Shown here: one piece after another, positions 1 through 61,230 of the stretch
Layout: every line of letters begins with the position of its first letter
Numbering within the stretch: the stretch's first letter is position 1
From: a virus
Virus record (IMG/VR): IMGVR_UViG_3300042887_000389
Coordinates: 1-61,230 of that record
Length of the DNA: 61,230 nucleotides
Reading direction: 5' to 3' (one strand)
Made by a program: the position numbers and the translations under genes
Notes under the pieces: generated by a model
The model's input: only the letters and a program-made list of their open reading frames with translations
Told to the model about the DNA's origin: nothing
The model's database searches: none

Positions 1-127
1 TATTTTTAAAATGATTAACTGTGTAGTCCTTCTTCTTTATCACTGTCTTGTACACGTCATGCTCAATGCCTCCCTTACTGAAGACCCAGTACACATGGTT
101 GAACGAACGATCCTTTGTTGTCATCCT
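1..127. repeat. Left copy of exact 127-bp terminal direct repeat
   Basis: Bases 1-127 are identical to 61104-61230, seen directly. The repeat lies inside the helicase coding sequence, whose reading frame stays open through the junction and closes with a stop only if the ends are joined. This fits a circular assembly with a k-mer-sized overlap rather than a biological terminal repeat (inference). The unique genome length is then 61,103 bp. Confidence 0.95.
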
Positions 128-10311: not shown

Positions 10312-10457
10312 AGTATTTTTGTTCCGATTATTTTAACTCGATTCTGATTTTTGTCCATCCAGGTCAACCAATTTTCTAGATGTTTATCATCTTTGAACTC
10401 CTTGACTTGGGTGAAATACGTTCCGTAGATACCTTTCATTTCAATTACTGCTTTCAT
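10308..10457 (-). CDS. Small hypothetical protein (49 aa)
   Basis: A 49-residue ORF joined to both neighbours by ATGA overlaps (10457-10454 and 10311-10308). The protein is charged and soluble with several aromatic residues (IYGTYF, NWLTWMD). The double overlap and the lack of another frame make it credible. Function unknown. Confidence 0.62.
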   Translation of the reverse strand: MKAVIEMKGIYGTYFTQVKEFKDDKHLENWLTWMDKNQNRVKIIGTKIL

Positions 10458-11200
10458 ATATCCTCTATTTTTCTGATTACAAATCCACCATTATCTTTGA
10501 TTGCTTTACCTTTTGCTTTTAATGCCACAATACTATTTGGCATATCCAGAAATCTTAGGTCAGTCTCATCCCCATCGATGACATTCACTTCTCTATTGTT
10601 GTACACTATCTTACCCATCTTCACCAACTTCTCGTGCAGTTCCTTAGAGAATACCATTGCGACATTTTTCCCCTCGTTTAATACATTGCGAGAGTACTCA
10701 ATATTTAACTTGGTCTCTGCCCTAGAAAAAGTTAGGTAGTAGTTAGCAATTTTATTGGTCATTGCCCTACGAGGATTCTTTGTGTAGTCATAGAACTGTA
10801 CATTTGGAAACGCCTCGAAGATGTTTGAATAGTACCTATCTTCTAGTACTACCTTGATATTCTCGAATGGCAAATCAGATGTACCATTCAATCGGATTAC
10901 TAAAGAATTGCCATATTTCTTTTGTAGTTTTACAATCTCTTTGTAGATATTGACCATGAATTCTTTCGGATTCTCTAAGAACTCTAATGTCTTATTTACT
11001 CTCGCAGTTTGTACACTATTCATCGCTCCCCTGCCGGCTGAATTTAGGCATGCATCTATGCATCTTGGAGTCGCATCCCCACATACATTTGTTTTGCCAT
11101 TAGCCATCTTATGTGGAGATAGGTACATGATTCCCGTAAAGTAACCTAATTTTTGGCCTTTACTTGTTTTGGCATCTGAGTTTACTGCAATTAGTCCCAT
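10454..11200 (-). CDS. Conserved phage protein with Cys cluster (GP88/DUF7227-like)
   Basis: A 248-residue protein. Conserved-looking segments are a Cys cluster CGDATPRCIDAC (Cys40, Cys47, Cys51), TARVNKTLEFLENP, RLNGTSDLPFENI, FYDYTKNPRRAM and VIDGDETDLRFLD. I recognise this pattern from phage proteins of the GP88/DUF7227 type found across actinobacterial and Bacteroidota phages; no activity is established. The order RLNGTSD ... YDYTKN ... DGDETDLRF looks like a barrel-type enzyme active site, and the Cys cluster could bind a metal. That reading is inference. It is the largest gene of the early small-gene operon. Confidence 0.68.
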   Translation of the reverse strand: MGLIAVNSDAKTSKGQKLGYFTGIMYLSPHKMANGKTNVCGDATPRCIDACLNSAGRGAMNSVQTARVNKTLEFLENPKEFMVNIYKEIVKLQKKYGNSLVIRLNGTSDLPFENIKVVLEDRYYSNIFEAFPNVQFYDYTKNPRRAMTNKIANYYLTFSRAETKLNIEYSRNVLNEGKNVAMVFSKELHEKLVKMGKIVYNNREVNVIDGDETDLRFLDMPNSIVALKAKGKAIKDNGGFVIRKIEDI

Positions 11201-13733: not shown

Positions 13734-13753
13734 TATCCCTGATTAATTAAGAG

Positions 13754-13780
13754 AGCCATTCTTCGGGATGGCTTTTTTTG
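13754..13780 (+). terminator. Intrinsic terminator with TTCG tetraloop
   Basis: An 8-bp stem (AGCCATTC at 13754-13761 with GGATGGCT at 13766-13773, one G-T pair) closes a TTCG loop and is followed by seven T residues. It ends the 96-residue gene unit and isolates groEL. Confidence 0.9.
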
Positions 13781-13822
13781 TTTTATATAAAAATTCTTTA
13801 GATTTGGTAAAATTTAAATCAA

Positions 13823-15412
13823 ATGGAACCTAAGGATTTATTCTTTGCCCAGGAGGGCAGACTCAAATTAATCTCTGGCATCAAGAAGATGGCTGGAGCG
13901 GTGAAGAGTACGTTGGGGCCTTATGGCAACACGGTGCTTATTGAGAGTCCTAATCACACGCATGGCATTACTGTAACAAAGGATGGGGTGACTGTCGCTA
14001 AGTCAGTTGACTTGATTGACCCTGTTGAGAACCTTGCGGTGAGGATGATGAAGGAGGCTGCTGATAGAACGGCTACCTCTGCTGGTGATGGCACGACTAC
14101 TGCCATAGTGTTGACTGAGGGGTTGGTGTTAGGAGGGTTGGAGCACATTAAAGATGACATGAGTCGCACTGAGGTGTTGAGGCACATTGGTGAGTTGAGT
14201 GGGCATGTGATAGATGGGTTGAAGAAGAAGGCCAAGAGGGTGAGCACAAACATGCTGCTTGATGTGGCGACTATAAGTGCTAACAATGACCGTGAGACCG
14301 GGAAGATTATTGCTGACGTGTACAAGGCTGTCGGCAAGACTGGCATAGTAACGGTGGAGCGGAGCCAGACAAGTGAGACCTATGCTGAGACCACGCAGGG
14401 GCTAAAGATTGACAGGGGGTACACAAGCCCACTGTTCATTAATGATCAGAGCCGAGATGAGTGCGTGTTTGAGGACGTGCATGTGCTGGTGGCTGACATT
14501 GAGATAGGTAACATCTTGCAGATTGAGAACGTGCTGAAGCCAATCATTACTGATGGGAAGAAGCTACTCATTGTGGCACCGTGCCACGTGAACGTGGTGA
14601 ACACACTTGCTGCAAACGTGATGAAGAACAATCTAAAGATGTGCGTGGTACAACCACCCAGCTTTGGGTACAAGCAGCATGAGCTGATGCAAGACCTGGC
14701 GGTGAGTGTCGGAGCGACATACTTCAGCGAGAAGACAGGCGATGACCTGAGTCAGATTACTATTGATGACCTGGGGCATGCATCCAGAGTGGTGGTGAGC
14801 AAGGACAAGACCATCATCCTTAAGAGTAACTTAAGGATAGATGAGGTGAAGGTCGAGGAGCGAGTAGCACAACTATGGCAGGCACATAAGGTCGCTAAGC
14901 GTAAGGCTGACAAGGACCACCTGCTTGAGCGCATTGCCTCACTAACCGGTGGCATTGGTGTGATATACGTGGGTGGGCAGACTGACCTGGAGCAGAAAGA
15001 GTTATACGACCGGGTTGACGATGCGGTGTGTGCTGTGAGGAGCGCATTGGAGGAGGGCATCCTACCGGGTGCTGGCAAGGCGTTGCTAGATGAGACTGCT
15101 GTGATTAGAAAGGAGCTATTCTTTAACTTAAGCAAGGAGCGTGAGGCTGCCATTGAGATACTATCAAATGCGATGATGGCACCATTCCAGCAAATCCTAG
15201 CGAACGCTGGGCTCAAGCCAAGTGACGTGTACAAGGAGGGCGTGGCTGTGGGGCATGGGTACAACCTGAAGACTGCTCAGACAGGTGACCTCATTAAGAT
15301 GGGTGTGATTGACCCACTGAAGGTGACTCGAAGCGCATTGCAGAACGCTGTGAGCGTAGCGACAACTATTCTAAGTACCAATGCTATCATAACAATTGCT
15401 AGACCATACTAA
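13823..15412 (+). CDS. groEL: Phage-encoded chaperonin GroEL (Cpn60)
   Basis: A 529-residue group I chaperonin subunit, close to the usual 540-550. It keeps LGPYGNTVLI (31-40), DGVTVAKSVDL (54-64), the ATP-binding AGDGTTTA (87-94), NDRETGKI, and the catalytic Asp near 398 in VDDAVCAVRSALEEGILPGAG. The C-terminal Gly/Met-rich tail of cellular GroEL is absent, the chain ending IARPY. It would form a folding ring, probably for virion proteins. The leader TTTAAATCAAATG precedes the ATG. Base composition is richer in G+C than the early operon (for example 32 of 60 bases at 14701-14760). GroES lies 3 kb away in another unit. Confidence 0.97.
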   Translation: MEPKDLFFAQEGRLKLISGIKKMAGAVKSTLGPYGNTVLIESPNHTHGITVTKDGVTVAKSVDLIDPVENLAVRMMKEAADRTATSAGDGTTTAIVLTEGLVLGGLEHIKDDMSRTEVLRHIGELSGHVIDGLKKKAKRVSTNMLLDVATISANNDRETGKIIADVYKAVGKTGIVTVERSQTSETYAETTQGLKIDRGYTSPLFINDQSRDECVFEDVHVLVADIEIGNILQIENVLKPIITDGKKLLIVAPCHVNVVNTLAANVMKNNLKMCVVQPPSFGYKQHELMQDLAVSVGATYFSEKTGDDLSQITIDDLGHASRVVVSKDKTIILKSNLRIDEVKVEERVAQLWQAHKVAKRKADKDHLLERIASLTGGIGVIYVGGQTDLEQKELYDRVDDAVCAVRSALEEGILPGAGKALLDETAVIRKELFFNLSKEREAAIEILSNAMMAPFQQILANAGLKPSDVYKEGVAVGHGYNLKTAQTGDLIKMGVIDPLKVTRSALQNAVSVATTILSTNAIITIARPY

Positions 15413-15414
15413 CT

Positions 15415-15648
15415 ATGGAGACAATACTTAACCCATTTGGCCACGGACAGGCGACAAAAGTCGTTGACGAGAACCGTAAGGCATGGCCTGAGTACCTACA
15501 GACTGCTGTGGTGCATGATGAGAATGAGTTCTATGTGCTGTTCGAGGATGGGCTGCTTGTAAAGAAGGGCCGCTCTAAGTTCCGCACAAGTCAATACATT
15601 AATGGTGAGAGGTTCAAGACGTTCAGAGAGCACTATGAGAACGCTTAA
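15415..15648 (+). CDS. Hypothetical protein (77 aa) after groEL
   Basis: A 77-residue protein starting two bases after the groEL stop, so co-transcribed and probably coupled. It has a strand-rich middle (HDENEFYVLFEDGLLVKKG) and a basic Tyr/Arg-rich C-terminus that looks like a small SH3-like fold. No family recognised. Confidence 0.7.
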   Translation: METILNPFGHGQATKVVDENRKAWPEYLQTAVVHDENEFYVLFEDGLLVKKGRSKFRTSQYINGERFKTFREHYENA

Positions 15649-15727
15649 GTCATGGGTCATTGTGGTGGGGCTGGCTGTGGTGTTTGCACTGCTGGTCATA
15701 TGGTGGCACGAGTTCCTGACAATGTGA
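15635..15727 (+). CDS. Single-span membrane peptide (30 aa)
   Basis: A 30-codon ORF overlapping the end of the 77-residue gene, with a basic start (MRTLKSW) and one strong membrane span (VIVVGLAVVFALLVIWW). It ends TGATG, sharing bases with the start at 15727, a standard coupling overlap. The alternative frame through the same bases would give an implausible Gly/Cys-rich N-terminal extension to the next protein. Confidence 0.6.
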   Translation: MRTLKSWVIVVGLAVVFALLVIWWHEFLTM

Positions 15728-16044
15728 TGGAGGCACCATTTGCAATTAAGGTAGGTGAGGTGCTTGAGCAGATTGAGCGCATGCTCATTGAGAAGAACCG
15801 GAAGTACGGCAACTCAGCCCTTGAGCCTATTGGTGTGTTCAGTAAGCTCTCCCCTAGGGAGGGCCTACTGATACGCATCGATGACAAACTAAAGCGAATT
15901 AAGAACGGCAGCCTAGATAAGGATGACGAAGACGTTGTGAATGACCTGATTGGGTACCTAGTCTTGTTAAAAATTCATGCAAAAAATACTGTGCCCGTTA
16001 TTGATTTGAGGACTGACCCATTCTTTAATCAGCACATAACGTAA
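15727..16044 (+). CDS. DUF1599-like nucleotide-modification-associated domain protein
   Basis: A 105-residue protein with KNRKYGNSALEP, GVFSKLSPREGLLIRIDDKLKRIKNG and EDVVNDLIGYLVLLKI, the signature of the DUF1599/Nmad family (MazG-like helical fold) found with phage nucleotide-metabolism genes. I place the start at 15727, where ATG overlaps the TGA of the preceding membrane peptide. A start at 15652 would add 25 residues antithetical to the family. Role in handling nucleotides is inferred from the family. Confidence 0.78.
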   Translation: MEAPFAIKVGEVLEQIERMLIEKNRKYGNSALEPIGVFSKLSPREGLLIRIDDKLKRIKNGSLDKDDEDVVNDLIGYLVLLKIHAKNTVPVIDLRTDPFFNQHIT

Positions 16045-16360
16045 ACTTTAGTTTACAAATGACTGACATATCATTCATTGTGGTTTACATTATGGGTTAA
16101 TGTAGTAGATATACTACCATAAGCTGCCAAACGTCTCCATTTTGTCTACATTTGGAGACTAATGTTGTCGATTTTTGGGACGAACATGTCTAGTTTATTA
16201 TACAAAATACTACACTATACTGTGATTTATCTGTATAATGTAAACCACAGCTTACATTATGACGCAAAATGTGTATTATAATGCACATTATGGGTAAGGA
16301 ATTCGGAATAATTCCGAATAAAAACCTATAGGTTCACAGATTGGGAACTTTTGTTAACCT
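16045..16360. other. Palindrome-rich non-coding region between convergent genes
   Basis: No gene is supported in these 316 bp. They contain perfect or near-perfect inverted repeats: GTAAACT/AGTTTAC (16041-16056), GTAGT/ACTAC (16102-16117), GTCTCCA/TGGAGAC (16133-16159), ATAATGTAA/TTACATTAT (16235-16260), ATAATG/CATTAT (16278-16291), ATTCGGAAT/ATTCCGAAT (16301-16319) and AACCTATAGGTT (16323-16334). The word ACATTATG recurs at about 16087, 16254 and 16285, and inverted near 16236. Possible origin, packaging or regulatory region; no T-tailed terminator stands out. Confidence 0.75.
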
Positions 16361-16897
16361 TTAAAATAACTTCTTGCTCACTCCAATCTGGTGAATACGC
16401 TGCAATGGCTGGTACTGGTACTGGAACAAGTACTTGTTGTCCAAGTAGGAAACAGATGCGCTAGGTTGGAGTAATGAGTTGACTCCTAAACCCAAGTAAA
16501 TACCCTTAGGCTTCTGTACAATTGTGCGAGTTTCTGTGTTGGTGACCGTGTTAGTTACCACCGGTATTTTAAAATCGTTCGTAACGCTCATTTTAAGGAC
16601 CTCTCCGAGGACTTCCCCGCTCACGTAGGTGTTACCATACTCAAAAGGAGTTGTCGTGCTGAAGGCCTTAATAATGGGCTTGTGGTCAACTAGGACTGTG
16701 TCCCTAAGAACTGTCTGTTTTATCTTTGTTTTAGGTACATATACCGTGTCTTTGACTTCAACTATCAGAGTGTCTGTTTCAGTTACGGTGGTAAACTTAT
16801 AAATCTCCTCTGCTTCAGGCTTAGGGTAGATAATAAAGGTCAGAACCACACCAATTAAAAAAGAGATGATTGCTATTTGTATTCTTTTATCTTCCAT
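16361..16897 (-). CDS. Membrane-anchored protein with beta-rich C-terminus (DUF6808-like)
   Basis: A 178-residue protein: an N-terminal membrane anchor at about 7-24 (IQIAIISFLIGVVLTFII), a periplasmic Thr/Val-rich region with repeated DT-V pairs (ETDTLIVEVKDTVYVP), and a C-terminal part of amphipathic strands that ends with KKLF, like a small outer-membrane barrel. The pattern resembles Bacteroidota phage proteins sometimes linked to lysis (DUF6808-like). It could span the envelope. Function is not established. Its ATG shares a base with the upstream TAA (TAATG). Confidence 0.65.
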   Translation of the reverse strand: MEDKRIQIAIISFLIGVVLTFIIYPKPEAEEIYKFTTVTETDTLIVEVKDTVYVPKTKIKQTVLRDTVLVDHKPIIKAFSTTTPFEYGNTYVSGEVLGEVLKMSVTNDFKIPVVTNTVTNTETRTIVQKPKGIYLGLGVNSLLQPSASVSYLDNKYLFQYQYQPLQRIHQIGVSKKLF

Positions 16898-17118
16898 TAT
16901 TGCTCGATAAATAAATTGTCTTCTGCTAATATTTTTCTTAACTCCTCACGGCACCATTTATAAGCCTGATAGGTCTCATCAGATAATTCTTTGTACTTCA
17001 TTTCAGAACGAAGCAACTGGTCAAAGTCCCAGATGGCATCTTTATAATTATGACCATTGATAGCGGCTTGGAAGTCCTTGTTGTCTTCAGGCAAATTAAA
17101 TTCTAGTACTGCTTTCAT
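16897..17118 (-). CDS. Conserved small phage protein (73 aa)
   Basis: A 73-residue helical protein starting MKAVLEFNLPEDNKDFQAAI, with AIWDFDQLLRSEMKYKELS. I recognise this N-terminal pattern from widely distributed phage proteins of unknown function. It is coupled to both neighbours: ATGA overlap upstream and TAATG downstream. Confidence 0.72.
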   Translation of the reverse strand: MKAVLEFNLPEDNKDFQAAINGHNYKDAIWDFDQLLRSEMKYKELSDETYQAYKWCREELRKILAEDNLFIEQ

Positions 17119-17996
17119 AGTGGGAACTTACAACTGTCTACTAATAATTCACAAGACCTGACTTCTTTTGTGTTTATTTCCTTACCAGATAGAGTAAGTA
17201 TTCTTCCACCTGTAGGTTTTATAGGGGCACCACGCTCAACATGCCAGCCAAATGCTCCATCTTGGTACTCTTCCTTGTAAGATCCGGTTATGGCTAGGTG
17301 AATCTGCTTGTGAACAATTTCATGCACATGCTTTCCTGGGTTATAAGAAATAGCATCACGTACATCATTACGGCTAGAGTTCTCATGTATGTGACCCATG
17401 ACAAAGATGTCCATGTTCTCGTACATTTCTAGGGCTCTTGTCAAGTTAATAGCTCCCTTTGTAACTATTCCTCCACCACCTGACCCATGGAAGTACTTTA
17501 AATTTTTTGAGAGTATAGTGTTGCCATTTAGATTATACTTAATAACTAACCATCCACCATATCCACCAGTATAAACGCTTGTCTTGTTGGTGTAGTTTAG
17601 CAAATCAACGAATCGTTGTAGCGGATCGGTCTCTAAGTTCTTTATGATTGCAGTCTCATGGTTACCATATCCAATTACTGTGAGAAGATGGGCGTATGGA
17701 GACCACCAATCTACAGCATCTTCAATGACTGCATCGATATAGTTGGCCTTGTTATGCTCAGGCAGAATATCCTTCTTGTTTCTTCTTGGATCATATTTTC
17801 CTTGCATGAGGCATAGGAAATCTCCGTTGATAAAGATGGGTATATTTTGTTTTTTGCAGTACTCTAAATGATCCTTTAGTTTTTCTCTATCACATTTTGG
17901 GTTATCCCAGTGTAAGTCTGATAGTAGTGCTAATTTTGTCTCTTCTCTTTTAAGTTCAAGGACGTGAACATTTCTGTTAACCTTTTTTAGATTCAT
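17115..17996 (-). CDS. Calcineurin-like metallophosphoesterase
   Basis: A 293-residue phosphoesterase with the metal-binding set: SDLHWD at 26-31 (Asp27, His29), NGDF at 57-60 (Asp59), GNHE at 111-114 (Asn112, His113), and GHIHE at 201-205 (His202, His204). It hydrolyses phosphate mono- or diesters; the substrate (nucleotide, DNA end or capped RNA) is not shown. First gene of a three-gene leftward unit divergent from the GroES operon. A TAACTTTA element upstream (near 18018-18025) is a possible promoter. Confidence 0.9.
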   Translation of the reverse strand: MNLKKVNRNVHVLELKREETKLALLSDLHWDNPKCDREKLKDHLEYCKKQNIPIFINGDFLCLMQGKYDPRRNKKDILPEHNKANYIDAVIEDAVDWWSPYAHLLTVIGYGNHETAIIKNLETDPLQRFVDLLNYTNKTSVYTGGYGGWLVIKYNLNGNTILSKNLKYFHGSGGGGIVTKGAINLTRALEMYENMDIFVMGHIHENSSRNDVRDAISYNPGKHVHEIVHKQIHLAITGSYKEEYQDGAFGWHVERGAPIKPTGGRILTLSGKEINTKEVRSCELLVDSCKFPL

Positions 17997-18082
17997 CAGA
18001 AGCTTATTTGTTGTCCATAAAGTTACTATTTTTTTTTATTTTCCAAATTCCTTTGCTATATTAGAAACATAAAAATAATACT

Positions 18083-18187
18083 ATGGCACTAAATCAAAGA
18101 GATTATCGCAACTTCATAGATGGACTTTTAGTAGGGCTTGTATTCGGGGTGGTTGTGTCCACTATCCTATTCTTAGTCTTTACATGA
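18083..18187 (+). CDS. Single-span membrane peptide (34 aa)
   Basis: A 34-codon ORF with a soluble N-terminus (MALNQRDYRNFIDG) and one membrane span (LLVGLVFGVVVSTILFLVF). It forms an ATGA overlap with the next gene and is the first gene of the GroES operon. A TATATTAG sequence at 18057-18064 may be its promoter. Confidence 0.6.
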   Translation: MALNQRDYRNFIDGLLVGLVFGVVVSTILFLVFT

Positions 18188-18432
18188 CCATAGTCGAACA
18201 GATTATGATTGACTACCCAGAGGAGACATTCTATATCATCTATGGGTTTGATGATGCAATTATAGGGTTTGATGAGTCGGATAGAAGATTGGTATACGAC
18301 ATCGACAAGGTAATAGATATCCTTGTTCTTGATGGGATGACTTATGATGATGCTGTAAAATTTTATGATTTTGAAATACTAGATGCTTACTTTGGAGAAG
18401 GAACTCCTATCTTTGTAAAAAATTATACATGA
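18184..18432 (+). CDS. Acidic hypothetical protein (82 aa)
   Basis: An 82-residue very acidic protein with many Asp and Tyr (GFDDAIIGFDESDRRLVYDI), coupled by ATGA overlaps to the membrane peptide before it and to groES after it. No family recognised. Confidence 0.65.
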   Translation: MTIVEQIMIDYPEETFYIIYGFDDAIIGFDESDRRLVYDIDKVIDILVLDGMTYDDAVKFYDFEILDAYFGEGTPIFVKNYT

Positions 18433-18686
18433 AAGCAATAGGAAAAAACATTGTAATCAAATCTATTGACGAGGAAGTTAAGACTTCTTCAGGACTATTA
18501 CTATCAGGTGAGGACACCAATCAATTACGCTACAAGCGTGGAGTAGTAATCAACTCGGGCACAGACGTTCAAAACATCAAGGCTGGAGATGAGGTGTACT
18601 ACGACAAGTCAAATAGTTATGTGATGATCATCAATGATGAGCACTGCGTAATTATTCAGGAACGTGACGTAGTTCTTGTCCTGTAA
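18429..18686 (+). CDS. groES: Phage-encoded co-chaperonin GroES (Cpn10)
   Basis: An 85-residue Cpn10 homologue, slightly shorter than the usual 95-100. The mobile-loop region is EEVKTSSGLLLSGEDTN (about 15-31). It is followed by the GroES pattern RGVVINSG ... IKAGDEVYYDKSN and the C-terminal strand ERDVVLVL. It would cap the phage or host GroEL ring. It ends a short operon and its 3-prime end overlaps the convergent wHTH gene by 35 bp. Confidence 0.88.
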   Translation: MKAIGKNIVIKSIDEEVKTSSGLLLSGEDTNQLRYKRGVVINSGTDVQNIKAGDEVYYDKSNSYVMIINDEHCVIIQERDVVLVL

Positions 18687-19128
18687 GTTTATTCTGCCTT
18701 AGTTCCTCATTCATAGTAATAATCATATTCCTGTAGACTTTGTCTGAGAACCTTACGTTCTTCTTGAACATGGGATTGTTGCACATTGTCTCAGGGATTT
18801 CTTCTCCCTCTAACTTTTTGTAGATTGAGTTAATCATTCGCTTTGCTTTATAGGACAGGCAGTATAGTGCCTTAGATCTCATGGCAGGTCTACCCTTCTG
18901 CTTGCTTGCGAATAGTTCAATCCAACCTTCATGTATTAGGCGATAGAATCTATGTTTATCCCAACCAAATATATTTTCATACTCCCTGAATGTACTGACA
19001 TTAAAGTATCGTTCTGAGTAGAGGTAGAGCAGCATATCTAAATCTGCTTGGCTGAGATTGTGCCTTACCTTAAAATATTCACGGATTACTTTCCAGAATT
19101 TCAGGTAGTCTCTTTTATTTGATTTCAT
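18652..19128 (-). CDS. Winged-helix DNA-binding protein, candidate late regulator
   Basis: A 158-residue protein with a winged-helix layout: NLSQADLDMLLYLYSE, then a recognition-like helix GWDKHRFYRLIHEGWI and a wing FASKQKGRPAM. I place the start at the ATG at 19128 (leader AATAATAAAAATG), not 60 bases upstream. A TACCTTTG promoter element lies 20 bases upstream. It is divergent from the start of the late region (19227 onward), which makes it a plausible transcription regulator. Its 3-prime end overlaps groES on the other strand. Confidence 0.72.
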   Translation of the reverse strand: MKSNKRDYLKFWKVIREYFKVRHNLSQADLDMLLYLYSERYFNVSTFREYENIFGWDKHRFYRLIHEGWIELFASKQKGRPAMRSKALYCLSYKAKRMINSIYKKLEGEEIPETMCNNPMFKKNVRFSDKVYRNMIITMNEELRQNKLTGQELRHVPE

Positions 19129-35121: not shown

Positions 35122-36543
35122 ATGCCAGTATTAAACACCCCTGGGTTCCAGTTGCAGCCAAGTGCTGAGCAGGTGCCTTTATCAACTAACTACATTACCA
35201 ACTTTGACTTCTTGAACCAGTATCTTCCTGATACCTACGAGAAAGAATTCGAGCGTTATGGTAACCGTACCGTGGCTTCCTTCCTAAGAATGGTTGGAGC
35301 TGAAATGCCATCCAACTCTGACATGATCAAGTGGGCTGAGCAAGGTCGTTTGCATACTAAGTATGTGAACTGCGATTCTTCTGCTGCTGCTGGAGCAGAC
35401 TCTGCAACTATCACTGTTGCTGATGCTAACGTAACTGCAATTGCTATCCGTGCTGGACAGACTGTATTTATCTCTGATAATGCTACAGGTCTTTCTAACA
35501 AGGGTATCGTTACTGCTGTTAACACATCTGCTGATACTTTCGATGTTGCTTACTACGAAGGTGCTGGACAGACTTTCTCTGGAACTGCTGTACTTTCTGT
35601 ATGGATTTATGGTTCTGAATTTAAGAAAGGAACTGTTGGTATGATTGGTTCTTTGGAAGCTGAAGACGAAATCTTCGACAACTCTCCAATCATCATCAAA
35701 GACAAGTATGCTGTATCTGGTTCTGACATGGCTCAGATTGGATGGGTAGAAGTAACTACCGAGAATGGTGCAACTGGATACCTTTGGTATTTGAAGTCTG
35801 AGCACGAGACTCGTCTACGTTTCGAAGACTACCTTGAGACTGCAATGATTGAAGCAGTTCCTGCTGAGACTGGTTCTGGTGTGGCTAACGCTTCTTTGAA
35901 CCCATTGTATGGTAACAAAGGTTCTGAGGGTATCTTCTACGTGGTTAACAACCGTGGTAACGTATGGGGTGGTGGTAACCCAACTACTCTATCTGACTTT
36001 GATAGCATCATCTCTCGTCTTGACAAGCAGGGATCTATTGAAGAGAACGTAATCTTCGTTAACAGAGCATTCAGCTTTGACATCGATGATATGTTGGCAG
36101 CTCAGAACAGCTACGGTGCTGGAGGTACTTCTTATGGTCTATTCGACAACGATGAGAAGATGGCCTTGAATCTTGGATTCACTGGCTTCCGTAGAGGTTA
36201 TGACTTCTACAAGTCTGACTGGAAGTACTTGAACGATCCTACCATGCGTGGTGGCTTGCCTACTAGTTCTACTGCAACTGGTACTGTAACTGGTCTATTG
36301 GTACCTGCTGGTTCTACCACTGTGTACGATCAGATTCTTGGTAAGAACGCTAAGAGACCATTCTTGCACGTTCGTTACAGAGCTTCTGAGACTGAAGATC
36401 GTAGATACAAGACTTGGATCACTGGTTCTGCTGGTGGTGCACAGACTAGCGATCTAGATGCAATGGAGGTTAACTTCTTGTCTGAGCGTTGTGTATGTAC
36501 CTTGGGTGCAAACAACTTCGTGTTGTTCAGATACGGAGCCTAA
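35122..36543 (+). CDS. Major capsid protein (HK97-fold)
   Basis: A 473-residue protein. Its order (scaffold before, head completion genes after), strong promoter upstream and terminator downstream, and sequence traits (NYITNFDFLNQYLPD, DMIKWAEQGRLHTKY, a Gly/Thr-rich insert, RYRASETEDRRYKTW) mark the capsid protein of crAss-like/Bacteroidota podoviruses. Codon use is regular with many favoured codons, as expected for high expression. Confidence 0.88.
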   Translation: MPVLNTPGFQLQPSAEQVPLSTNYITNFDFLNQYLPDTYEKEFERYGNRTVASFLRMVGAEMPSNSDMIKWAEQGRLHTKYVNCDSSAAAGADSATITVADANVTAIAIRAGQTVFISDNATGLSNKGIVTAVNTSADTFDVAYYEGAGQTFSGTAVLSVWIYGSEFKKGTVGMIGSLEAEDEIFDNSPIIIKDKYAVSGSDMAQIGWVEVTTENGATGYLWYLKSEHETRLRFEDYLETAMIEAVPAETGSGVANASLNPLYGNKGSEGIFYVVNNRGNVWGGGNPTTLSDFDSIISRLDKQGSIEENVIFVNRAFSFDIDDMLAAQNSYGAGGTSYGLFDNDEKMALNLGFTGFRRGYDFYKSDWKYLNDPTMRGGLPTSSTATGTVTGLLVPAGSTTVYDQILGKNAKRPFLHVRYRASETEDRRYKTWITGSAGGAQTSDLDAMEVNFLSERCVCTLGANNFVLFRYGA

Positions 36544-48738: not shown

Positions 48739-51700
48739 ATGAACGAACAGGCTTTAAATTATTCGTATGAACTATTCAAGAAAGATGGGTATACCGGAAC
48801 ACTTGATCAATACAAACAACTTATAAGTTCAGACAAACAAGCTCTTGATTATTCATATAATCTTTTTAAGAATGATGGATACTCTGGCAGCGTAAATGAT
48901 TTCAACCAACTGATTAGCCCTATGGCTGAAAAGCTAGTGGCATCTGAGCCTGTTGAGCCAGTAAAAAAAAAAGATACGGTATCACCATTTGTGGATGGTG
49001 GTTCGGGGCTTACAAACTTTGACCCACGTACTGGTCAAGTTGTACAGGAGACTCCTGCCTTTGCACAAAAGCAACCTGAGGTAAAGTTACCTAAGCAGAA
49101 ACTACCTGCACGTACTGAATTTCAATTTCAACCAGGGAAGGGATTGCCTGAACAGAAAACCGCTCCACTTCCTAAGTTTGTTGAGGAGCAGTTATCTGCT
49201 GTTAAACCAGAACTTATAGGTAAGACTGAGGAGAATGTTGTACCACAACTTAAGTATCAATTCGGTCCACTAGGATTTAAGTTTGAAGAAACTGGTGCTG
49301 GTGATTTTATGAAAGCCACATCTCCATCAGGAGAGTCTATTGAAATATCTTTGGATATAATTGACCCTGCTGATAGAGAAGTAGAAGCCAATAAACTAAA
49401 CGCATTTTTAAGAAAGGGCACCACCGCTGTAAAGAACTTATCCACTTTACAGAAGCAGTACACAGACGCTAATAAAAAGATTGTATCTCAGAAGGAACTT
49501 GATGAGTCTCTGGCAAGCATCAATGCAGAAGAGACAAAAATCTTGGCAAGAAATGCTGAGTTCGTTAAGACTCAGAATAAACTAGAGGCAGAGAAAGCAC
49601 AACTAGAAAGTGTTCCTGTACAGCAAAGAAACAATCCGGAGTACATTGCTAGAGTAGATGACTTCATATCAAGAGCAGATCAGTTCAGTGGTGAATTCCA
49701 ATCCTTTATAAAGGATGCTCAGGATTTGTCAAAGAGAGGTCAGCAATTGAACAGGTCCATAGGCAAGTACACTGAGATGAAAGCTCAGCAGGGTACATGG
49801 TATGGTGCTGCTTTAAATGCCGTTGCTAATAAGTCAATCTACAATATGGCTAAAGGATTCTCTGGGCTTGCTATTGATTTCTTGGGAGAAGTAATACCAA
49901 CTCAGGCTATAATGAGTCAGGATGATTACGAGAAAAACTTCATAGAGCAGGCTAAGAAAGAGGGTGTAGATATTGCTGAAGGAGAAGACTTCATATCAAT
50001 CACTAGTAGACTAAGCCCTGAAACTATTGCTAATATAGAGAATAGGGTACGAGATGTAGCAAAGAAAAGTGTAAAGGGAGAGATTATAGGTGGTTTAGAT
50101 AAGGCTTCTAAGACGATTATGGAATCATCAGGGGTTTCTCCTGAGTATTACAGGTCAATTGAAGAGACATTTGTTGGAGGCGCATTGCTTGGTGCATTGA
50201 CATCTATACCGGCTATGGCTGGTGGACCAATCGCACGTACAGTATTGATGAGTTCTCAGGTATTGGCAGGACTGGATGATGAGATGGCTAATGATCCTGC
50301 ATTTGCAGATGTGTCAGAGAATGAGAAGTTACTAGTTAAGGCTCCAATTGCAGTAGCTGTAGGTATACTTGAAAGTGTTGGTCTAAGTAACTTATTAAAG
50401 CAAAAAGGTTTCTTGAATGGATTAGTGCTTAAGGCATTAGGAAAGGTTGGGACAGGTGCTAGTTACAAGACATTTGGAGAAGTAATTAAGAATGAGATTG
50501 ATAGCGCTATAGGCAGAGGAGCTTTAACTTTAGGGGCTGGTGTTTTAGCAGAAGTTGAAACAGGCGCATTACAAGAAGTTGCTGATATCACTGCCAAAGA
50601 AATTTACAACATGGCTAAGGAGAAGAAGATGTTTGATACTCCTGACTCTGTGGTACAATTTATTGAGCAAGTAGGTAAGGCTGGTCTACAGGAAGGTATT
50701 GGAGCAGGAGTACTTGCTGTACCTGGATCTATATCTGCCGCCTACAGAGGCAAGGGATTCTTAGGAATGGATGATGCTCAGTTTGCTATGTTCGAGAAGA
50801 TGGCAAATGACTCAAACATTCAGAAGGGATTTATTGCTAGGCTTAAGTCTAGAATTAATGCTGGAGAGATTACTTCTGCTGAAGGTAAAGACATCTTAAA
50901 TAACTATAGAAACTCTATTAGTTTATTCAACTCGTTGCCTGATAACCTTGACATGAAAGGTAAGAAGGAGGCGATGAACTTGCTAAAGGAGAAGCGTGAA
51001 TTGGAGCGTCAGATTGATGGCAAGGATCAAGCATTGACAGTTCCTCAAAGAAATAGAGTAAACGAAATAAATCAACAACTTACTAAACTATCAGAAGATG
51101 CCGTTCAAAAGCAAGCAGCAGGTGAAGTACCTGTACAGCCAGGAACCAGAGTTAGCCAAGAAATGGCGCAAGGAGAACCCCAAGCAGAACCTCAAGGCGT
51201 TACCCAAGAAGGTCAAGAAAAAATAAATGAGATTGAGAGAAGAAGACAAGAGGAACTGAGCACTTACGATGAAGAAGGTCTTAATGAAGTTTATGAAGTA
51301 GGTAGCGATCAAACTGTAGGAGAGTTTATAAATGCCAAGTATGATGCGGAACTAGCAGCATTAGAACAACCTACTCAGGAGGTAGATGTAGAAGGAGAAG
51401 TATCAAGACTTGAGCAACTATTTGCAGAGCAAGAGACTGCTCCTACCGTATCTGCTGGTATATCAATATCAAATGATGCTGATGTAGAGGAGTTAAGAAA
51501 TAGAACTAAGTCAAAATCTCAGCAGGCCACAACACAAGAAGAGAAAGAATCTTCTAGCACAAGATTAAAGATTATTGACACAGCGAAGAAGGCTATCAAA
51601 ACATTGAAGTCTGTATTCCCTGATATTGATATTGTAATCCATGATGATGAGGGTAGTTATAATGCTGCAATGGCAGACATGGATGGAGCATCTGGAACTA

Positions 51701-54700
51701 GAGGCAACTTCTCTTATGAGACTACTCCTGATGGTAAGACAACAGGAAGGATTGACATAAATCTATCCAGAGCTAACTCTAGAACAGTAGCTCATGAGGT
51801 TGCTCATGGTATACTATTTAAGACATTTGGAGAGAACGTAAACTTATTCAATGACTTTAGAACAAGACTATCCAAGGTACTTAAGGGTGATGCAAATAAG
51901 AAACTAAATGATTTTGCTGCTAAGTATGTTGACCCTGTTACAGGACAACTACTAGATGTAAACCATGAGGAGTTCTTGGCTGAGTTAACTGGTATGTTAG
52001 AGCAGCAGGAGACAAGCGTATCTGTAAGTACAATGCAGAAAGTTGCTGCGTTGATTAATGAGTTTGTGTCTAAGATTACAGGTGGCAAGTTCAAACCATT
52101 TGAGGATACTAAGAATACCAAGGACGTAGTTGACTTCTTCAATACTATCTCTGGTGCTATCAGAGAGGGCAGTGAGATACAGCAACTAAATAGTCAAGAG
52201 CCATACTCTTCAGGTGTAGCAATACCTGTAAGTAATCCTCAAGAATTTGTTGGTAAGAAGTTTAAATCTCAGGTTGATATAGGTGATTATAAATTCCCAT
52301 CTGGAATAGATATCCTAACAATAGCAGACTTACCTATAAAGACTTTAACTGAATTAGTTAGACAGTATGAAGGCAGAGTATTAATCATTACAAGTGATGC
52401 CACTGGGTATGGTGTAGATAAGAATGGAGACGCAATCCTTGGTGGTTTTGGGTTTGCTTCAAACAAAAAGAATGTTGATGATGGTATTGGATTTGCAAGT
52501 GTTAGTACTGGAACAGTAAGAGGAACTTATACAGCAGCTGAGAAAGCATATGGTACAGGGAAGACTCTTGTGCTAGTAATGATTCAGCCTCCACATACTA
52601 CTATCAATAACTCTTATGGTGCTAAGTACATTATCAGAGGGCTAAAAGAAATAGCCGCATCTTCTAAGGAAGAGTTAGCAAAAACTAAGGATGCCATTAA
52701 GAGTTTTATAAAAGGCTCTAAGGCTATTCAAAATGAATTGAAGAATGATCAGGCTGCTTTGAAGAGAGGATCAGAGAAGAGATTATTTGACTTGATTGAT
52801 AGCATAGATGAGAATACCAATTTAGAAGAAGCAGTTAAAGAGTTTCTTAATGACACTACTTTTACAATAAGAAAGGAACTTGGTAAAGGTATAATCCTTG
52901 AGAATAAAAATATAAGAACAAACAAGTCTACTAACTATAGTAAGATTGCACTTAACAATGTTGGGTACAACATATATGATTTCCTTAAGGAGTACGGAGA
53001 CAATACATTCTTGACAGATGATTTAATTCTAAATAATACTGGAGGGTATGTGGTTGGTGGATTTGAATTAGATGTACTTCCAAAAGAACAGAGAGAGACT
53101 TTAATAAATGACATACAAGGAAGTGGTATAGTACATCCATTGTTTAATGCAAAACTTCCTGGAACAAATCATTTTAGACTTGATGGCCTATACGATGTTC
53201 AAGAAAACTTTTCTGAATATGCTAAGCCTGACACAGAAATTTCTTTATCAAAAGAAGAAAGAGATGCTTTGGTAAGAGAGATTTACAAGGATGATAAGTT
53301 TTATAAGGCAGAGGCTAGATTAATTCCTTTAGATAAAAGATCATATACCAATCTAACTGTTCCAGCTAAGACTGAATTTAAGGATAAGTATTTAAAACAA
53401 AGAGGGTTACTTACAGAGGCCACACCAAATGTGCCTACTAAAGTTGCCAAAGGAGAAGGGTTTATCCCTAGAGAAGGTGCCGCTGAACAAATGGCGAAGA
53501 GAGACTTTGTAAGCAGAACTCAGGATGAAGCTACGCCAAAATCTAAAAGGGTATCTAAGTCTCAGATAATTGGAGAGAATGCTCAACTTGAAGCTGTAGT
53601 AAGACATGATTTAGGTGTTGCTAAAATTCTATCTAGAGAAGGATTGCTACCACAAAGAACTAAACTCATTACTGGATGGGAGTTGGGATCTGATGGTAAG
53701 TGGAGATATGAAATACCAGATGGTAAGTTCAAAGAGAATATTGATATAAGTTCTCCTTCTAAACTATCAGATATATTTGATGCACCTGATTTGTATAAGG
53801 CATATCCTGAAGCAAGGAACATAGAGGTTGAGTTTAAATTGTTGCCAGAAAAAGAGTTTGGTAATTTTAGTCCAGACACAGGGGCAATTATAATAAACAG
53901 ATCAAAATATAAGAATGATAGAGCGGCTGCTGAGCTGACTATGCTTCATGAAATCCAGCACTGGATACAAGTAAAAGAGATATTTCAAGGAGGGTCAAGT
54001 GTTGTACAGGCAGAATTCAAGATGAAAAAAATTGTTGACTACTTTGAAAAGTTAGTCAAGAAGAGAGAGAGTATATATGATTCAGCAAGATTATTTTATT
54101 CAGACAATCAAGAGGTAGTTAAGGAAGCAAAAGAACTTCTAGACTTTGCTAAAAGCCAATACGATATAGTTAAAGAATTAACATTTGAAAAAGGCACTAA
54201 GGAAGAGAAGGCAAAAGCCACTGAGATGATAAAAAATCTCAGCGAATATGCAAAGAGAGGAATCCCATCTGCTCAGAATCTTATTGATGAATTGTCTAAG
54301 AAGAATCCTGCCGAAGCATTTAATCTTTACTATCGAGTAGCAGGAGAGGTTGAGGCAAGAAATGTAGAGTACAGAAATAAATTGACCAAAAGTCAAAAAA
54401 GAAATATCCTACTTTCTGATACTGAGAATATAGACAGAGATGATCAAATCATGATTGACTCATTTAACTTTATATTTCAGGCTGATGAAATGAAGAATGA
54501 GTTCAGAGTTTCAAAGTCTCAACTAGATGATCAGGATAGAATAAATAAATTAATCAATGATGCAAGGGCTCAGGGTTTCTCTGAGGAGGCTATCATATTA
54601 TTCTTACAGCGTAAGGGTCTGACTGATAAGGTCATAGATACTGCAATGGCTAAGGCTGAGCCTGCTGCCAAGAAGGTTGAGGTGACTGAGGAGTTTGCTC

Positions 54701-57700
54701 CTGGGTATGACAGAGTTCTCAACAACATGTTTGGGAAAGATGGTGTAGTCGCCAAGTCACGTAGACGTGGTGTATCTGAGGAAGGTACAATTGAGAATGC
54801 CATCAAATATCTACGTGGTACAAAGGTATATGAGAACGCTACTGACGTACAGCGTGAGGCTATGGAACGCAATGTGAACAAGGAGTTCAAGAAGCGTGAG
54901 AAGCGTGCTCCTAGTGCTGAGAAGGTAGTAGGTAAGCCAAAGAAGAAGGAGGTTACTGTCGATGAGATGGCAGCATTGAAGGACCAGATAAAGCTTGAAG
55001 CAAGAGCAGCAAGAGAAGCCAAGGGAGATCTTAATACCAAGCGAAAAGCATTGGCTGCTAGAATTATTGCTGCTAGAAGGAAGGGAACCATTACTGCTGC
55101 ACAAGCTAGGGCTTTAGTAAATAGAATTAGCAAAGTCAATCTTGATAATCCTATCATGGTAGATAGATTGATTGAATATACTGATAAGGTATTCGATGAT
55201 GCCAACTATGCTGCTGACATGGCTGAGTTAAGAAAACTACAGAAGCAGGCTAAATCAAGGAAACATACATCAATGAGTAATCTTGTTGATAGATTCACAT
55301 CTATTAACCCAGAACTTATACCACTAGATAAAATACAGGAATATAAGGAGGCACTTGACTTCTTGAATAATAGAACTCCTTCTTATTCCAAAATGAATGA
55401 GATGCTTTCTGAAATTGAATCTTATCAGGTTGACGATCAGTTCGATGCAGTTAAGACAAAGGATGGTCTTATAGATAAGTTCAATAGTATACTATCCAAT
55501 AAAGTTGAAAGTGTAGAGGATTATATTGCATTAATAAAAGACATCAATTCATTCAAGAGAAAGGCATACCAGTTACTACAGAACGAAGTTATTACCCAGG
55601 AAGAGTATGAGGATTTAATTGATGGAGCTGGAAAGAACCAGGCTACTATTGAGAAGAAGTTTGCAGAACAAATCAAAAAGATAAAGAGCGATTTAATATC
55701 TGAGATAAAGACGCAGCGACCAAAGACTAATCCTGAATTCACCAAGGAAGAGAATGATTTAATCAAGGAGTACCTAGAACTTAGCGATGCTGACCTTGAG
55801 AGTCTATCCCCTGAGGAACTATTCATTTTAAATGACTTACTAGAAAACATTAGCAATGGAGAGATAGATGTATTTAGATTTGGAAACATCGTATCTAAAG
55901 CATCTAAAAATAAAGAGGGTGTTGCTGTTGGTAAGCAACTAAAAGGATCTAAGTTAAGCCTTGGTTCAGCAGAACTAAGAAAGAAGATGGCTCAGTTTGA
56001 AAGTTCATTCTGGGAGGGGCTTCTTGGGTTAGGCAGAGCCACATCAGGGCCATTACAAAAGTTTATTATATCTCCATTCAATAGAGCAATTGGTTCTTAT
56101 GAGAAGTTCTTAAGAGATGGATACAATGATTTCTTAAAGCTTAAGAAAAAGTATAAGATTGATGATTCTAAGTTAATAAAAAGTACTAAGCAAATGACTA
56201 AAATAGGTATGCTAACCACATATCTACAGGAGTATATGGCTCAGTTTGATCCTAATAATAAGGGTGTTGATAATATCGGAAAGCGTGATTGGTTCAAGGA
56301 AATCTTGGCTAGTGAAACCATGAGAGATGACTACTCTCCTGAAGAGTTAAAGATTATTGAAGAGGTATATAAGAGTCTACCTAAGGACAAGGATGGTAAT
56401 GTAGATCCAAAGGCGGTGTACGATAGCTACATGGCTAATGATGGTAAGTTCTTTACTGAAAATGAGAAGGGATTCTTTGATGAGGTAATGGAGTGGAAGA
56501 AGAAAAATTCAACATCAAAGCAGAAGGCCGCTAATGAGATGAATGGTAATCCATTCAAGGAGATTCCTTTCCACATGCTTAGATCAAGGTACGGAAGTTC
56601 AGCTCCTCAAATTGCACCAAGTACATCTGGTGACAATGGAATGGTACGAATCAAGGCTGGTACCGGTAAGGAAAGAGTTAGTGAAGCAGTAGGTGCAATC
56701 AATACAAACTTTGAGAAGTTATTCATCAAAGGACTTGAGCAGACTGGTAGAGATTACTTCTTATCCAAGGCATTAAAGGATATCAACAACGTGTTGGCAT
56801 CTGCTAAGAAAGAACTTGCTGGAGATAAAGATCCGCTAGTTAAGGCTATATCTTATACGCTATCTGATGCATTGGCTTATGAGTTCAGTGATACCGCTAG
56901 TCAGAACATATTGAAGAGATTGGTTCAGGCTAGAGCTGCAATGACATTGTTTGATCCTATCAGAGCAGGAGTAGAATTTACATCTACCCTACTATCATTT
57001 GGTCTTAGAGCTAGAACATTATCTGGATATAAGAACTTGTTTGGTAGTCAGGGAGATATGAAAAATCTACTTGAATTTACTAATAGCCCTCTAAGACTAC
57101 GTCAGAATATCAATAATGCAATTGATATCAATGATGGTAGGATAGAACCACAGGGTATGTTTATGAAGTGGACCACATTCCTATCTGGTCTACCAGAAAG
57201 AACGATGATGGTTACCTCATGGATGCCAACATTCACTAATGAGTTTCAGAATATCACAGGTGAGAAGTTTGACATGAAGAAGTTCAATGATAGCGAAGCA
57301 TATAGAGAGAAGTATGGTAAGGCTATTAAGGATGCTTCTGCTGTCGCTGATGCACAGACTGAAAAGATTATTGGTCCAACTACAAAGGCTGGTCAGAGAA
57401 GAGACATTATAATTTTCCCTGGAAAAACTGTTGGTAGAGATACAGTGTCTGGTCAGATACTTGGCTTCTTTAGTAACTATCCTTACCGAGAAATAACTGA
57501 ATTCTTTAATGGATTTAGGGAGGCGTTAGAAGTATTGAAGAAGGGTGATACAGTAGATTCATTAAGCAAATTGCAGAAGCCTCTTGGTATTGCTTTGAAC
57601 GTGGCTGCTTACGGATTCTTGTCATCAGTAGTGTACGCTTCTAGATTGATTCTTTTTGGAGATGATGAAGAGGAAGAGAGAGGAGAAAAGTTATTGGAAG

Positions 57701-61098: not shown

Positions 61099-61230
61099 CT
61101 ATCTATTTTTAAAATGATTAACTGTGTAGTCCTTCTTCTTTATCACTGTCTTGTACACGTCATGCTCAATGCCTCCCTTACTGAAGACCCAGTACACATG
61201 GTTGAACGAACGATCCTTTGTTGTCATCCT
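61099..61230 (-). CDS. C-terminal end of the same SF2 helicase (duplicate created by linearisation)
   Basis: The last 127 bases repeat the start of the window, so this piece encodes the C-terminal residues of the helicase that begins at 1363. It supplies the missing last codons and the TAG stop at 61101-61099. It should be merged with the feature at 1-1363 in a circular annotation and is not a second gene. Confidence 0.93.
   Translation of the reverse strand, partial: RMTTKDRSFNHVYWVFSKGGIEHDVYKTVIKKKDYTVNHFKNR
61104..61230. repeat. Right copy of exact 127-bp terminal direct repeat
   Basis: Identical to bases 1-127. It lies in the helicase C-terminal coding sequence and reflects circular closure. 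Confidence 0.95.

Follow-up and report, generated by a model that had tools for sequence, protein, structure and literature searches.

A GroEL and a GroES are both encoded in the viral DNA analysed here, IMG/VR virus record IMGVR_UViG_3300042887_000389 (positions 1-61,230; the whole stretch of 61,230 nucleotides is hereafter the window). The explanation favoured, with a little better than even confidence, is that the pair is a dedicated, vertically inherited phage chaperonin, probably a single ring with an open lid, whose clients would be virion proteins of about 50 kDa. The fuller proposal, that this is a natural self-contained single-ring GroEL/GroES with a weaker lid grip, an open-topped cage and one specialised phage client, is made tentatively and at somewhat less than even confidence. 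The heptamer, the single ring, the cycling of the lid and the client are all deduced from sequence. The carriers form a lineage of podovirus-like phages of about 60 kb that probably infect Flavobacteriia.

An original prediction, made from the window's sequence alone, had claimed that both genes are present and complete, and both are indeed intact:

13823-15412, + strand: groEL, 529 residues, 57.3 kDa, intact, no GGM tail
18429-18686, + strand: groES, 85 residues, 9.5 kDa, intact, roof hairpin absent

GroEL matches Pfam Cpn60_TCP1 at 190.9 bits (cut-off 34.3), covering residues 24-524, GroES matches Pfam Cpn10 at 42.9 bits (cut-off 21.1), and PHROG searches return 429.6 and 53.3 bits respectively, all far above chance. 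The NCBIfam GroEL subfamily models PRK12849 and PRK00013 both score above cut-off; the GroEL equivalog TIGR02348 is missed (441 vs the 582.1 bits needed), as are all the GroES equivalogs, which match below cut-off (35.9 vs 109). Both proteins thus read as divergent members of their families. GroEL has an E. coli-like length and its core aligns to the E. coli protein without breaks.

Viral contigs were scanned with the window GroEL, and the best 80 of the 130 matching loci (71-97% identity), together with the window, make up the family of 81 sequences referred to throughout; they are kin, not independent samples. Residues were compared with those of 80 bacterial GroELs, the best 80 of 592 matches from a scan with a GroEL alignment of 84,980 species genomes, confined to genomes that contain either of two peptide patterns; 75 of these 80 also yielded a GroES.

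Ring interface, lid and candidate clients

The nucleotide-binding site of the phage GroEL appears unchanged. T30, G32, P33, D52, G53, D87, T89-T91, D398 and D495 are identical in every family member reaching the site, and K51 is present in 78 of 79 (two members being incomplete at the N terminus). The residues of the adenosine triphosphate (ATP) site are intact on this comparison and ATPase activity is predicted.

The inter-ring salt bridge K105-D435 is found in 79/80 bacteria and 3/81 family members, and R452-E461 in 79/80 and 2/81; both together occur in 79/80 bacteria and in no family member, while either one survives in 5/81. K105 is mostly Glu in the family, opposite E435. Across eight positions assigned to the interface, A108, A109 and E434 among them, mean entropy is 1.80 bits vs 0.52 for control positions of similar conservation in bacteria, and none of 20,000 matched draws was as high, a figure that is not a probability because the sequences are related. 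The single-ring mutant SR1 is altered at R452, E461, S463 and V464 (PMC12696368, PMC5575113). All four SR1 sites are kept in 78/80 bacteria, whereas one or none is kept in 79/81 family members, and V464 is Asp in 69/81 and Glu in 7/81; a single-ring ancestral chaperonin carries SR1-like changes including V464E (PMC12696368). Mitochondrial Hsp60, which is mainly a single ring, is without the same two salt bridges, and their absence has been linked to the single ring (PMC5575113). The ring-ring contacts have probably decayed, which would leave a single ring or a weak, transient double ring. Among nine other phage GroELs, eight are without one or both bridges and that of Bacteroides phage DAC19 alone keeps both; bridge loss may extend to phages more widely.

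The hydrophobic groove of the apical domain (Y203, L234, L237, L259, V263 and V264) is changed in part. L234 is replaced by Glu (79/81) or Asp (2/81), E238 by Lys (80/81), V263 by Ala (78/81) or Ser (3/81), V264 by Ala (81/81) and Y203 by Leu (52/81) or Met (29/81), with F204, L237, N265 and Y199 kept. A polar residue at 234 also occurs in two more distant members, Asn in G042 and Glu in G046. From these residues the GroES and substrate groove appears remodelled and less hydrophobic, the change being fixed in the family. Loss of ATP or GroES contact residues had been named in the original prediction as the outcome that would tell against it, and the result is mixed: the ATP residues are intact, the groove is partly replaced, and the same comparison brought out the lost ring-ring contacts, a point absent from that prediction. 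Its statement that GroEL lacks the Gly/Met tail is correct and extends to the whole family (0/81, vs 67/80 bacteria with the tail). Net charge per subunit at six cavity-wall positions is -6 in E. coli and -5.95 on average in bacteria vs -0.99 in the family.

The lid is changed as well. The roof stretch of GroES is 6-7 residues long in 81/81 family members, in the phage record MW202828 and in Elemovirus, and elsewhere measures 8 in T4 gp31, 15 in E. coli, 10 in Bacteroidota (20/20) and 14-19 in other bacteria (55/55); the phage lid would therefore seem to have dropped the remainder of a roof that was already short in the host phylum. The mobile-loop segment has 26 residues in 81/81 family members vs 24 in 71/75 bacteria, Leu occupies position 25 in 67 family members, with Ile there in 9 and Met in 5 (bacteria: Ile 69, Leu 6; n=75), and Y71 is replaced in 81/81. 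An AlphaFold model of GroES, with a predicted local distance difference test score (pLDDT) of 89.1, has coil and no strand at the place of the roof. Against solved structures it matches the bacterial Cpn10 1wnr at Z 10.7 and gp31 at Z 8.6 in both 1g31 (root-mean-square deviation 4.5, 82 residues aligned) and 2cgt (1.4, 64 aligned). Sequence and model alike indicate that the Cpn10 fold and the mobile loop are present, and the missing roof is a variant feature and no bar to Cpn10 membership, because gp31 is likewise roofless. In print, gp31 with its lost roof and lengthened loops is credited with a larger cage in which the 56-kDa gp23, the capsid protein, can be folded (PMC6318259).

Taken together, family membership and the intact active-site residues suggest that the phage GroEL is an ATP-driven heptameric ring capped by the phage GroES: the ring would bind an unfolded phage protein, the lid would close it and ATP would drive the cycle. 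E. coli GroEL deprived of its second ring cannot release the lid, and a weakened lid contact restores function (PMC5575113); GroES I25L and I25F are reported in the same study as apparently functional with the single-ring mutant. The family combines both kinds of change, so far as residues can indicate, in that its ring contacts are lost and its groove, now less hydrophobic, faces a lid with mostly Leu25. Because a weaker grip frees the lid in the engineered single-ring E. coli protein, the groove and Leu25 changes could sustain a one-ring cycle here, a weaker grip letting the single ring release its lid and keeping the cycle turning. With the roof hairpin gone and the mobile loop extended by two residues, the cage would be more open, in the fashion of gp31.

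The likeliest clients would be abundant virion proteins, one or a few in number and about 50 kDa in size, with a candidate capsid protein foremost. Two genes were considered:

35122-36543, + strand: 473-residue virion protein, 51.5 kDa, phrog_13704 (virion structural); candidate capsid protein and client
48739-58443: 3234-residue protein, 359.8 kDa, at the end of the virion gene block; no known family, one weak PHROG match

The gene of the 473-residue protein lies downstream of the portal gene with one gene between them, and its product is 75-100% identical in the 80 related loci. Compared with solved structures, its best match was only an unrelated kinase (expectation value E 0.15). Its role as capsid protein and client is a guess from sequence; at 51.5 kDa it would fit such a cage. 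For the N-terminal 667 residues of the 3234-residue protein, no solved structure matched with an E below 0.067. A GroEL cage takes about 56-60 kDa, and the 359.8-kDa protein is rejected as a client. It had been suggested from the sequence that the phage folds its own large virion proteins, whether the capsid protein or this one; only the second half of that suggestion falls, and the pair most probably still serves to fold a virion protein of the phage.

Weighing the alternatives

Several points weigh against the single-ring, open-lid interpretation. A sequence does not give the number of rings with certainty, and the 81 family members, at 71-97% identity to the window, are relatives and not independent witnesses to interface decay. 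A charge-swapped 105-434 pair is found in 14/81, the window included, and new pairs may replace the old. The Bacteroidota roof is already short, so that the step is from 10 to 6-7 residues and not from 15 to 6. I25L is not diagnostic, as gp31 has L25 yet works with a double-ring GroEL, and 14/81 family members have Ile or Met at this position. Phages phiEL, OBP and AR9 likewise encode GroEL-type proteins, which act through single rings (PMC5934643, PMC7185714), where here there is a residue signature only; unlike these jumbo phages, which have been described without a co-chaperonin, the window encodes a GroES. As for the client, the AlphaFold2 model of the 473-residue protein is poor (mean pLDDT 39.2), the protein does not match the major head protein of crAss001 (probability 0.4%), and its distances follow those of GroEL less well (Pearson 0.73-0.76, within an overall range of 0.73-0.79 for the candidate) than do those of GroES.

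The strongest competitor is an ordinary double-ring GroEL/GroES working by the host's mechanism, its ring contacts rebuilt with other residues, which would agree with the retained overall fold and ATP residues, the E. coli-like length and unbroken core alignment, and the charge-swapped 105-434 pair in the window and its 13 companions. The interface positions, however, vary freely in a way that none of the matched draws reproduced, unlike a maintained contact, and the R452-E461 site is charge-swapped in just 3/81 and canonical in 2/81. A rebuilt double ring is therefore considered unlikely, although it deserves to be taken seriously.

Does the phage lid serve the phage barrel? GroES might instead cap the host GroEL in the manner of gp31, leaving the phage GroEL to act alone or with host GroES; its lid is roofless as gp31 is, the two genes stand apart in the window, and some phages have a GroEL without an annotated GroES beside it within the stretch compared. 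Yet the two genes share a strand in 80/80 related loci, with groES always the downstream one, and pairwise GroEL and GroES distances correlate at 0.92-0.95 (Pearson; record G003, whose locus is short, yielded no groES), though shared descent accounts for part of this. Separate partners for the two proteins are accordingly rated improbable.

Use as an auxiliary gene, folding host or phage enzymes under stress and supporting the infected cell and not particle assembly, would suit the position of groEL in the early or accessory region, away from the block of virion genes, and the lack of a known client. Against this, the pair is fixed in near-complete relatives. The portal and the 473-residue virion protein were used as bait in place of GroEL, covering 19 longer records and, in addition, mostly shorter portal-selected fragments: groEL is present in 13/13 bait-picked records of at least 55 kb and groES in 12/12 of those tested, the thirteenth being the record of locus L016, which also has groES. 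Between 40 and 55 kb (n=7) groEL is found in two records and not in five; in these five the contig stops or is interrupted between the lysis-side and recombination genes and, because none of them has an intact region without groEL, they are not counter-examples. Eleven portal-selected fragments of 22-40 kb have no groEL and are uninformative either way. In the phage collection, 247/50,697 records match the window GroEL. The claim that such genes are rare in phages consequently stands for phages at large and fails within the lineage, where the pair looks universal. Pairwise ratios of non-synonymous to synonymous substitution rates (dN/dS) are 0.08-0.13 for groEL (5/7 comparisons usable, two of unequal length being left out) and 0.04-0.28 for groES (7/7), values that point to purifying selection on both proteins. 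Fixed presence and the remodelled groove favour a specialised client, and a general supporting role is given a low probability. A defence role was considered separately and rejected, as none of the PADLOC models matches groEL or groES.

That the genes belong to the phage is indicated by their surroundings and their descent. The first 127 bases of the window (1-127) recur exactly at its end (61104-61230), a terminal repeat that probably marks the record as a complete genome, and its other genes are plainly those of a phage: large terminase (TerL), portal, virion structural proteins, tail fibres, endolysin and a Sak-like annealing protein. The nearest bacterial GroEL, among the best 80 of 592 matches, is about 40% identical. 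In a maximum-likelihood GroEL tree of 66 sequences, including 19 of the 81 family members, 37 of the 80 bacteria and E. coli, the 19 members group with MW202828 in a single clade that has full support and excludes all 38 bacteria, adjoining Elemovirus and Maribacter phage Panino; the other phage branches are long and their exact places unsure. The G+C content of groEL (0.51, and 0.60 at third positions, vs 0.40 for the window) exceeds that of its locus in 80/80 relatives; being so widely shared it is a standing trait, and perhaps strong expression has shaped the choice of codons. This raised G+C is the argument for contamination by host DNA or a recently captured host operon, a reading refuted by the conserved loci and shared G+C excess, the bait-picked relatives, a gene order (groEL-groES) that reverses that of E. 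coli (groES-groEL), and the tree, contamination having been the other outcome that the original prediction set against itself.

Arrangement of the groEL-groES locus

The window departs from its relatives in the 3 kb that separate the two genes. The features upstream of, between and beyond them are as follows:

13749-13778, + strand: terminator-like hairpin upstream of groEL, 13 pairs followed by a T run; consensus match only
13777-13806, + strand: exact TTTG-N18-TAnnTTTG promoter match, ending 16 nucleotides before the groEL ATG
15415-15648, + strand: cassette gene 1, 77 residues; no Pfam or PHROG match
15652-16044, + strand: cassette gene 2, 130 residues; phrog_1485
16361-16897, - strand: cassette gene 3, 178 residues
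16897-17118, - strand: cassette gene 4, 73 residues
17115-17996, - strand: cassette gene 5, 293-residue calcineurin-like phosphoesterase; Metallophos 22.0 bits (cut-off 21.5), phrog_7339
18083-18187, + strand: 34-residue hydrophobic peptide; its membrane location is a reading of the translated sequence
18184-18432, + strand: 82-residue gene overlapping the groES start; phrog_13182, with a match in part of the relatives
18652-19128, - strand: convergent gene at the groES 3' end, winged-helix-like by eye, overlapping groES by 35 nucleotides

The scanned stretch holds 5 terminator-like sites vs 4.0 expected, so that the scan alone is weak proof of the hairpin upstream of groEL. Matches to TTTG-N16-20-TAnnTTTG, a promoter pattern of the Bacteroidota type, number six in the window vs 1.89 expected on both strands, a count reached by 1 of 100 shuffles, and all six (8157, 10779, 13777, 19118, 33954 and 37660) are on the + strand. 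Sigma-70-type promoter-like sites are at chance level (14 found, 15.9 expected). The nearest terminases are those of Flavobacterium, Cellulophaga and Tenacibaculum phages, and together with the promoter match they probably point to a host among the Flavobacteriia.

The five-gene cassette separates groEL from groES in the window and in 18/80 related loci. It is absent from 61/80, where the gap between the genes is 17-1884 bp (median 255), and one further locus has a stray match to it only. The carriers are the closest relatives by GroEL (78-97%), and those sampled cluster in the tree with the non-carrier L019 outside them (support 93/99). The split therefore appears to be a derived insertion of five genes in one subclade, at which groES presumably gained its own transcription start. 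Of the layout first described, groES does lie 3 kb away behind a convergent group (16361-17996, - strand) and the hydrophobic peptide, and a hairpin does precede groEL; groEL is not on its own, as cassette genes 1 and 2 trail it at gaps of 2 and 3 nucleotides. The two transcription units, which we infer from gene order, would accordingly be a product of the insertion, as the distribution of the block suggests. No meaning of the split beyond the insertion itself is supported, and a functional significance for the separate location is rejected on the distribution of the block.

The convergent gene follows groES in 80/80 related loci, with a 3' overlap of 4-41 nucleotides, mostly 35 or 4, where stops could be placed. 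It has no Pfam, NCBIfam or PADLOC match and belongs only to phrog_17028, a PHROG of unknown function. It is also next to groES in Elemovirus and in MW202828, where it is named a repressor. Upstream, a GP88-family protein is encoded at 10454-11200 on the - strand (129.3 bits), and few related loci match it within the stretch compared.

Related systems and significance

A GroEL-GroES pair in a phage of about 60 kb is already known, being annotated in GenBank for Elemovirus and for MW202828, and the pair is not, as had been thought, unusual in a podovirus-like genome of this size. The nearest named relative, MW202828 (Caudoviricetes sp., Podoviridae isolate ctfjg026, from Manatee Spring, 60,850 bp), has a GroEL 59.5% and a GroES 62.4% identical to those of the window, annotated as groEL and chaperonin 10 kd subunit, with the same convergent neighbour and with the ring salt bridges and the roof likewise lost; unlike in the window, the two genes are adjacent, without the five-gene insertion. 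The Flavobacterium phages of Elemovirus (vB_FspP_elemo, about 60 kb) also have an annotated and adjacent groEL-groES pair with a roofless GroES, and share the convergent neighbour (29% identity), TerL (45%), GroES (34.5%) and the capsid candidate (46.5-47.6%). Their GroEL, however, is 36% identical, keeps Leu234 and has a ring interface only partly changed. On genus-level genome similarity, the TerL and capsid-candidate values suggest that the window is related to Elemovirus and belongs to a different genus.

More widely, GroEL is known from phage group 2 of the Flavobacteriaceae and from viruses of MGII archaea, and occurs in 36 environmental genomes of the Flavobacteriaceae phage group that includes phi38:1; GroES is unmentioned there (Nishimura 2017, PMC5332604). 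T4 gp31 resembles the window GroES in its roofless lid, longer mobile loop and fold, but has the host GroEL as its partner, whereas this phage encodes its own GroEL and a GroES whose sequence is nearer to bacterial Cpn10. Human mitochondrial Hsp60/Hsp10, not a phage system, is without the same two inter-ring bridges, and its Hsp60 is mainly a single ring working with a lid (PMC5575113).

Within the literature searched, outside which stands Marine 2017 on virioplankton chaperonins, the single-ring, open-lid reading is new. If it is true, this would be, to our knowledge, a co-chaperonin-dependent single ring outside mitochondria, and roof loss like that of gp31 would have arisen independently, here paired with a cognate barrel. 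Whether group I chaperonins can cycle on one ring has long been asked, so far on the basis of engineered GroEL mutants and mitochondrial Hsp60. The family would then supply dozens of natural variants of a small, separate system that depends on its lid, so that the loss of the second ring, the grip of the lid and the shape of the cage could be studied singly, and would provide a second model of phage capsid folding beside T4 gp31, one in which barrel and lid are both encoded by the phage.

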